Assembly: GCF_030816115.1 (NCBI RefSeq)
Contig: NZ_JAUSXQ010000001.1
Span: 1,674,001-1,738,000 of the forward strand
Direction: 5' to 3'
Length of the DNA stretch: 64,000 bases
Source of the DNA: Chryseobacterium sp. W4I1
GTDB lineage: Bacteria; Bacteroidota; Bacteroidia; Flavobacteriales; Weeksellaceae
A program made the translations under genes and the position numbers. Every line of letters begins with the position of its first letter. Within the stretch, counting starts at the first letter, position 1. Under the pieces are notes generated by a model that made no database searches, was not told the DNA's origin, and was given only the letters and a program-made list of their open reading frames with translations. Below, piece after piece: positions 17,624 to 19,768 of this stretch.

Positions 17624-17710
17624 TATAAGCAGATTCACTAATAATCATTATCTATAAGTGTTTCTGCTTATATTTTTTATATATAAGTAATTATGCTTAT
17701 ATTTGCATAA
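17624..17710 (+). promoter_or_regulatory. three tandem 29-bp operator units overlapping the satD promoter
   Basis: Three units start at 17624, 17653 and 17682, exactly 29 bp apart. Each opens with the palindrome TATAAG-N8-CTTATA (the first has CTAATA). The second half of the third palindrome overlaps TATATTTG (17698-17705), a TAnnTTTG -7 element only 5 bp before the satD ATG at 17710. The transcript would therefore be leaderless or nearly so. Inner bases of the first and second units also form an 11-bp inverted repeat (ATATAAGCAGA at 17623 and its complement at 17663). The arrangement is that of a multi-site repressor operator. Confidence 0.7.
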
Positions 17711-18315
17711 TGATAGCGGTCATCACCGGTGATATTATAAATTCACAGCATGCAGACACAGAAGTTTGGATCACCAGACTCAAGAATCTCCTGGAAAACT
17801 GGGGAAGTTCACCGCTCGCATGGGAAATCTACAGAGGAGACGAATTTCAGTTCAAGTGCAGTATTGATGAAGTATTCTGGCGTTTCCTAGCCATTAAGTC
17901 CCTTATAAGAAGTCAGGAAAATTTAGACGTAAGGATTGCTATAGGCATCGGGGAAGAGAATTTTTCCTCTGAAAAAATTACCGAGTCCAACGGAACGGCT
18001 TACGTACATTCCGGAAGGCTGCTGAATGACCTTAAAAATGACGGGCATACCGTTTCCATAAAAACCTCGAACGAAGCCGTAGACCGTGATCTGAATATCC
18101 TGCTGAAATGGTCTTCCAAAGATTTTGATAACTGGACGGTAGCTACAGCAGAGATCATCCACGAAATGATCATGAACGAAGATCTCACACAGGAAGATCT
18201 TGCCAGGAAGTTTGCAATCTCACAGTCCTCCGTAAGTCAGAGGCTGAAACGTGCTAACTACGAACTTATCGTAGAAACTAATCAATACTTTAGAAAGAAA
18301 ATCTCAGAACTGTAA
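17710..18315 (+). CDS. SatD-family protein with C-terminal helix-turn-helix
   Basis: 201 residues. The N-terminus (MIAVITGDIINSQ) and the 65-90 region (VRIAIGIGEENF) are typical of the SatD family, named after a gene of a streptococcal secretion and acid-tolerance operon; biochemical function is unknown. Residues about 155-190 form an HTH (LTQEDLARKFAISQSSVSQR), so it probably binds DNA. The operators immediately upstream make autoregulation likely (inference). It is followed after 2 bp by the DUF3307 gene, a pairing I recall from other Bacteroidota and Firmicutes. Confidence 0.78.
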   Translation: MIAVITGDIINSQHADTEVWITRLKNLLENWGSSPLAWEIYRGDEFQFKCSIDEVFWRFLAIKSLIRSQENLDVRIAIGIGEENFSSEKITESNGTAYVHSGRLLNDLKNDGHTVSIKTSNEAVDRDLNILLKWSSKDFDNWTVATAEIIHEMIMNEDLTQEDLARKFAISQSSVSQRLKRANYELIVETNQYFRKKISEL

Positions 18316-19048: not shown

Positions 19049-19768
19049 ATGGAAAAGAAAGAAATGTTGTACGAAGGTAAAGCAAAACAAGTATTTGCTA
19101 CCGATAATCCTGATCAAGTAGTCGTACGTTTCAAAGACGATGCTACAGCATTTAATGCTCAAAAAAGAGGATCTGTGGATCTGAAAGGTGAAATGAACAA
19201 TGCCATCACCACTTTGATTTTTGAATATTTAAATGAAAAAGGGATTAAAACTCATTTCATCAAACAATTGGACGAAAGAGAGCAATTGGTAAAGAAAGTA
19301 TCCATTATTCCTTTGGAAATGGTTGTAAGAAACTATTCTGCAGGAAGCATGGCTCAAAGATTAGGAGTGGAAGAAGGAATAAAATCTCCGGTTACCATCT
19401 TCGATATCTGCTATAAAAAAGACGAATTGGGAGATCCGTTGATCAATGACCACCATGCCGTTTTCTTAGGAGCAGCAACATATGAAGAGCTTGATGAAAT
19501 GTATGAGCTAACTTCTGATATCAACGATATTCTGATCGATCTTTTTGATAAGATGAACATTATACTGGTTGATTTCAAAATTGAATTAGGGAAAACTTCA
19601 GACGGGGAAATCATCCTTGCAGACGAAATTTCTCCTGATACATGCAGACTTTGGGACAAAGATACCATGAAAAAACTGGATAAAGACAGATTCAGAAGAG
19701 ATCTTGGAGAAGTTACCGAGGCTTATGTAGAAATCTACAATCGTCTTAAAACTCTTCTTCAGAAATAA
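19049..19768 (+). CDS. purC: phosphoribosylaminoimidazole-succinocarboxamide synthase
   Basis: Joins CAIR and aspartate with ATP to give SAICAR in purine synthesis. Signatures are [10 protein letters not shown] at the N-terminus, [28 protein letters not shown], and the C-terminal [12 protein letters not shown]. The length of 239 residues is standard for the bacterial enzyme. It follows DUF3307 and precedes purF by 106 bp, a stretch with a large potential stem-loop. Confidence 0.95.

Follow-up and report, generated by a model that had tools for sequence, protein, structure and literature searches.

A phased palindrome array precedes most sampled satD genes of Bacteroidota and is probably an operator of SatD itself

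Which protein regulates a short gene pair when both of its products belong to families of unknown function? The question is raised by a locus of Chryseobacterium sp. W4I1, which we analyzed in a window of 64,000 nucleotides (positions 1,674,001–1,738,000 of the single-contig 4.62-Mb genome; coordinates without a prefix are those of the window). In this window, satD (17710..18315, + strand) encodes a 201-aa protein of family PF16264, and a gene for a 231-aa membrane protein of the DUF3307 family (PF11750; 18318..19013, + strand) starts 2 nt past the satD stop. The downstream neighbour (19049..19768, + strand), which we take to be purC as in the original prediction, lies 35 nt past the DUF3307 stop in an order that is kept in near genera, and it is possibly transcribed by read-through from the satD promoter. 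The PF16264 profile matched the window's SatD with 53.5 bits (cut-off 29) over residues 2–191, placing the protein in the family. SatD loci numbered 594 or more; among the best 80, which were kept, all 62 with at least 85% identity were named Chryseobacterium.

The original prediction placed three palindromes TATAAG-N8-CTTATA, one with CTAATA, in front of satD at a step of 29 bp, and we found them there with starts at 17624, 17653, and 17682. Candidate operator site 1 (TATAAGCAGATTCACTAATA, 17624..17643) has one mismatch (CTAATA), and site 2 (TATAAGTGTTTCTGCTTATA, 17653..17672) and site 3 (TATAAGTAATTATGCTTATA, 17682..17701) have none. The last palindrome indeed overlaps a TAnnTTTG (−7-type) box (TATATTTG, 17698..17705, + strand) whose end is 4 nt before the ATG, but it does not run up to the start codon as had been thought, since 8 bp separate its end from the satD ATG (17710). 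Within 17624–17672, the inner bases of site 1 are nearly the reverse complement of those of site 2 (AGCAGATTCACT vs AGTGTTTCTGCT), and in genome G033 the two sites both carry the variant AGCAGATGTAC. Single palindromes of this kind are not rare, with nine in the window at ≤2 mismatches against 4.9 expected and at least nine in 6/100 shuffles.

Phased palindromes are conserved with satD. Unlike single sites, a 29-bp site pair (≤3 mismatches) is a rare pattern: 60/60 Chryseobacterium genomes had it, 55 of them with exactly three occurrences, and a reversed control pattern was found in 1/60. In a sample of 120 genomes from the family, the phased pair occurred in 33, the reversed pattern in one, and satD in 45; the TATAAG pair was carried by 30 of the 45 satD-positive genomes vs 3 of the 75 satD-negative ones. 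The pair lay at satD in 27 of those 30 genomes, only at a patatin gene in two (G101 and G167), and elsewhere, ~10 kb away from satD, in G093. Sequence 5' of the array was far less conserved than the array in the genus and family comparison. Among 21 pair-bearing genomes from other genera, the array stood directly before satD in 17, whose SatDs share 34–70% identity with that of the window; the exceptions were G072, G093, G100, and G148. G148 has a 3-mismatch pair and satD was not detected in it. G100, for which the family genome search gave no satD match, carries two phased pairs at the 3' ends of genes (L153:4426-4474 and L154:4768-4816); both are perfect, have G/C-richer centres, and are perhaps terminators.

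Two genomes bear on whether the array belongs to satD or to purC. G072 (80% complete, 7% contaminated, no satD match) could be taken for a case of an array with purC only, a candidate that we rejected, as an ORF with satD-like ends follows the array. In this region (L152:2200-2540), the short ORF starts with MIAV and ends with KITEL, and a DUF3307-like start and then purC come after it; read by eye, the ORF looks like a satD relic with start and end kept. The array likewise could not be assigned to purC in G117, where it precedes satD-DUF3307 among other neighbours, and it thus accompanies satD, not purC. The notion that the gene pair leads into purC applies to some members of the family, with purC found in 18/67 representative loci, many of which are short.

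Site positions were counted, at ≤3/12 mismatches per site, in 138 distinct satD upstreams with a length of 200 bp or more. Site 3 was found at −28 in 106/138 upstreams, and among these 106, site 2 was found at −57 in 98 and site 1 at −86 in 87. The mean column information in the 106 upstreams was 1.15, 1.32, and 1.70 bits for sites 1–3, 1.16 bits for the linkers, and 0.31 bits farther upstream.

We then left the motif and the spacing unimposed. SatD (PF16264) was found in 66/296 genomes drawn from Bacteroidota, and 174 satD upstreams (L198, a mis-called ORF, was left out) were reduced to 67 representatives by clustering the proteins at 80% identity. The de novo search returned the best palindrome pair with shared arms at a distance of 20–45 bp and a gap of 4–10. 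The best distance was 28 bp in 33/67 representatives and 29 bp in 27/67 (60/67 together), compared with 46/670 at either distance in dinucleotide shuffles and 105/1,700 in real windows drawn from these loci at a distance from satD, in which genic DNA was allowed. Scores above 30 were reached by 49/1,700 control windows, two of them at 28/29 bp, and by 45/67 satD upstreams, all 45 at 28/29 bp. The distance distribution was near-flat in the shuffles and in the 1,700 real windows. Fifty-five representatives exceeded the 95% point of their shuffles and 54 of these peaked at 28/29 bp; seven of the 67 peaked away from these distances and 12 were within the null. Outside the family, 37/42 representatives were best at 28/29 bp. 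The check proposed with the original prediction, which was to look in front of satD in other genomes for the palindromes and their 29-bp step, was thus strongly positive, beyond the genus and even with changed letters, and the array is more general than the window alone could show.

The arms vary by lineage and include TATAAG, TATTGA, TATTAC, TATCGT, ATATGC, GTTTCA, GTTGCA, TTAACC, and others. The 54 above-threshold arrays have 2–5 sites each, counted by extension in 28/29-bp steps only, so that the spacing counts are not independent. Half-sites of alternating orientation were 14+14 or 14+15 bp apart in 23/54 arrays, and in the others the half-site frame depends on which six arm bases scored best. 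Palindrome autocorrelation, a noisier method than the four-arm score, was strongest at lag 14 (the half-period), as expected of a palindrome array; outside the family, its value at the 28-bp lag (0.055) was below the largest shuffle value (0.064), which only lag 14 exceeded. A step of 28–29 bp is ~2.7 turns at 10.5 bp/turn, and dimers bound one after another would thus follow a spiral path around the DNA.

The partner gene is also kept in many loci. A DUF3307-type motif followed satD in 37/66 representatives with enough downstream sequence (a second count, 37/67, differs in two loci, L216 and L230), and 24 of the 29 representatives without it came from the more distant set L186-L214 and L235. 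In 19 of the 37 exactly located DUF3307 ORFs, the start overlaps the satD stop by 4 nt, suggesting translational coupling. Thirty-five DUF3307 proteins have 28 invariant residues in common, including His, Asp, Glu, and Arg. The DUF3307 model is all-helical (mean pLDDT 87.3), and its search against the PDB gave no confident match (best E 0.29).

SatD itself was said to end in an HTH, and both Pfam and a confident structural model agree. In residues 144–198, Sigma70_r4 scored above its cut-off and further HTH models below theirs. The AF2 model (mean pLDDT 94.7) has a domain at ~1–120, a helix at 122–140, and a winged HTH at ~144–198. The N-terminal domain is predicted to adopt a palm fold of the nucleotidyl-cyclase/GGDEF/Cas10 kind, with a best Foldseek E of 4.4e-3 and none ≤1e-3; SatD matched 21 Pfam families at E ≤1, none of them a GGDEF or class III cyclase model. 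Two aspartates, D8 and D44, were present in 28/28 SatDs, and in 35/35 and 34/35 of 35 further members chosen without the motif (139 motif-picked proteins were left out because the search expression includes both Asp). From the topology, they are candidates for the cyclase metal positions. In cyclases, two Asp positions bind metal-NTP. The palm cyclases and polymerases compared were class III cyclases, GGDEF, Cas10/Cmr2, archaeal GTP cyclohydrolase III, Dpo4, and mCpol (Panoptes OptS); SatD differs from these in its small size and its C-terminal winged HTH, and its likeness to them comes from the predicted fold. Neither SatD nor DUF3307 matched synthase or effector models in PADLOC of 2023, which may predate Panoptes. 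The sole PADLOC match of SatD was to the HTH part of the CARF3 model (E 0.0043), and SatD had no match in phage records.

Two known types of regulator resemble SatD in part. MarR-type and other winged-HTH repressors exert negative autoregulation via palindromic operators over their own promoters. SatD shares with them the palindromes, the winged HTH, the overlap with its own promoter in Chryseobacterium, and a short gene pair with a membrane protein. It differs in its other domain, predicted to be a cyclase-like palm fold, and in its array of 2–5 sites, with a 28–29 bp step kept across the phylum sample. Several SatDs bear the database name 'MarR family transcriptional regulator', and the HTH had therefore already been noticed by annotation. 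CARF-HTH regulators (Csa3 type) join a nucleotide-related domain to a winged HTH, as SatD appears to do from its model; however, SatD has no CARF match outside the HTH, and its domain resembles the synthase side rather than the sensor side.

The promoter points to a mode of control in the window's lineage. TTATnTTTG lay 3–6 nt before the ATG in 104/109 distinct upstreams whose final 60 bp contain TATAAG, mostly from close relatives, and TAnnTTTG was found 3–7 nt before the ATG in 39/9,553 background ATGs. The overlap of this box by site 3 suggests repression. We infer a leaderless satD transcript and repression by occlusion for the window's lineage only: TAnnTTTG ended 4–5 nt before the ATG in 18/67 representatives and was absent within 40 nt in 41/67, and the last site was 2–111 bp from the ATG across arrays, so promoter overlap is not general.

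The best explanation of the array, with a probability of roughly 0.8 as judged from sequence comparison, is autoregulation by SatD, which would bind cooperatively to sites arrayed in a fixed geometry. The three sites would be SatD operators, and SatD, with its palm-fold N-terminal domain and winged HTH, would bind each palindrome as a dimer. Adjacent dimers would cooperate because the dyads are held at a fixed 28–29 bp, with the half-sites of the window's array alternating in orientation every 14–15 bp. Bound SatD would cover its own −7 box and repress the satD-DUF3307 unit (negative autoregulation), and the palm domain with its two kept Asp positions would be a likely ligand switch. In Chryseobacterium, SatD may have one further strong target, an array of two sites where a patatin gene ends.

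We compared the arm letters with the SatD recognition helix in 53 of the 54 representatives, leaving out L190 (truncated protein); the arm frame is partly ambiguous in a phased array, which limits this comparison. Arms and helix were correlated (Mantel r = 0.467, p = 0.0005, N = 53, shared ancestry not fully removed), also when the N-terminal part was controlled for (r = 0.26, p = 0.0005, N = 53, kinship only partly corrected), and with the helix controlled for, arms and the N-terminal part showed little correlation (r = 0.056, p = 0.11, N = 53). The pairs include SQSSVSQRLKRAN with CTTATA, SSVSE with GCCGA, NRDQIWKRR with TGTTTC or TGAAAC, DR(S/T)QIYRRR with TGCATC or TGCAAC, and AVYKN with GGTTAA or GGTTGAA. 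The arms track the helix and not the rest of SatD, as expected if SatD itself reads the sites. Since the step is kept while letters and helix change together, SatD very probably switches its own gene.

The second array was found far from satD. A patatin-like gene was present in 60/60 Chryseobacterium genomes (E ≤1e-60), and 29 of 30 patatin loci returned had two sites with a 29-bp step (≤2/24 mismatches) at one fixed offset, the first overlapping the stop codon; the 30th (L323) had site one whole and the first 16 bases of site two. As 21 patatin loci of the initial set had been chosen for having the array, the unbiased counts are the 60/60 genomes and the 29/30 loci. In the window's genome, this array lies outside the window (G000:C1:4139311-4139359, L003:1472-1520). 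One genome (G171) has two patatin genes, each with its own site pair. The genes downstream of patatin vary, and the array therefore belongs with the end of the patatin gene. Its 3' position, not obviously at a promoter, is a counterpoint to the model, and SatD might serve there as a roadblock, cause termination, or govern the promoter that follows some tens of bp on. In a further lineage, a candidate SatD regulon was rejected: a GTTTCA pair was matched only by G227 and G335 among seven genomes, and the second G227 pair is inside an ORF and looks like chance.

The patatin protein matches PADLOC models named Effector and Phospholipase (best E 1.5e-60), which we take to be CBASS effectors. Its surroundings had further features. 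An island at L016:6376-10084 combines an M15 endolysin-like peptidase with a patatin that resembles the effector phospholipases of PADLOC, and it also contains an acidic ORF of 82 aa and repeated LRR_5 proteins; in other genomes, a DUF2589 gene or a gene that we presume to be WYL-like lies beside the patatin/LRR_5 island. A promoter-like element, CG(A/T)CAAGTTnTG then TACnTTTG, recurs in similar form at the patatin, 82-aa ORF, and LRR_5 genes (at about 1060–1100, 1400–1440, and 2670–2720 in L003) and is perhaps the operator of a second regulator.

Taken together, these parts allow a broader reading, rather doubtful as a whole, in which SatD-DUF3307 is a chromosomal nucleotide-signalling circuit. 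The SatD palm domain would make or sense an NTP-derived messenger, the winged HTH would report the messenger state on the helical array with its half-sites alternating every 14–15 bp, and DUF3307 would be a membrane effector or enzyme. In Chryseobacterium, the patatin phospholipase, which resembles defence effectors, would belong to this regulon as well. Such a circuit is attractive in view of the cyclase-like domain and the patatin link, but it is unproven.

The strongest competitor to autoregulation is a different, unlinked regulator that controls satD-DUF3307 and the patatin locus and has the arrays as its operators, with SatD only a target. The patatin array far from satD, the phased pairs of G100 in a genome with no detected satD, and two lineages that keep TATAAG-like sites despite a changed helix (L173, SQSAFSQF; L180, TQPGVSQA) fit this view, and SatD binding is itself deduced from sequence. 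We consider it improbable, as in the 53 representatives the arms vary with the recognition helix of SatD but not with the remainder of the protein, the step stays constant at 28–29 bp while the letters change, and the array stays with satD when the neighbours change.

It is still less probable that the palindromes are RNA or DNA hairpins, acting as an attenuator or bidirectional terminator rather than as protein sites. They are perfect, the second array is directly at the patatin stop codon, and the two G100 pairs are at 3' ends; yet the arms are 6–7 bp and A/T-rich, and neither the fixed step nor the covariation with the HTH is expected of hairpins. With the −7 box at the end of the array, most of the array would also be untranscribed from the satD promoter. 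Chance palindromes or an UP element of A/T-rich DNA with coincidental spacing, for which the abundance of single sites at ≤2 mismatches might speak, are hardly credible and are refuted by the reversed-pattern control (1/60 genomes), the near-flat distances in shuffles and real windows, and the contrast between 1.15–1.70 bits in the sites and 0.31 upstream.

Autoregulation by SatD would add to what has been described for the family in streptococci. The family PF16264 is named after S. mutans secretion and acid tolerance D and is the same sequence family as the window's SatD. In excerpts of PMC11323703, satD is essential in the tested S. pyogenes strains yet accessory (178/249 genomes), and a link of satD to acid tolerance in S. 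mutans is cited; excerpts of PMC10326533 give satD an acid resistance annotation. The excerpts of both papers ascribe no regulator role to streptococcal SatD, and the arrays described here are from Bacteroidota. In the open-licence literature, DUF3307 turned up in one paper, on a jumbo phage, and the name 'SatD family protein' in one. SatD as a regulator was not found in that literature, which by itself does not prove novelty.

For the Bacteroidota, the array makes SatD and DUF3307, families without a known function, testable as a regulated unit and provides a predicted operator for many species. The satD upstreams also offer a series of natural variants, in which the operator letters co-vary with the recognition helix at fixed spacing. 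If the predicted fold is true, SatD would be a minimal cyclase-like domain with a winged HTH, an unusual join of nucleotide chemistry to transcription.
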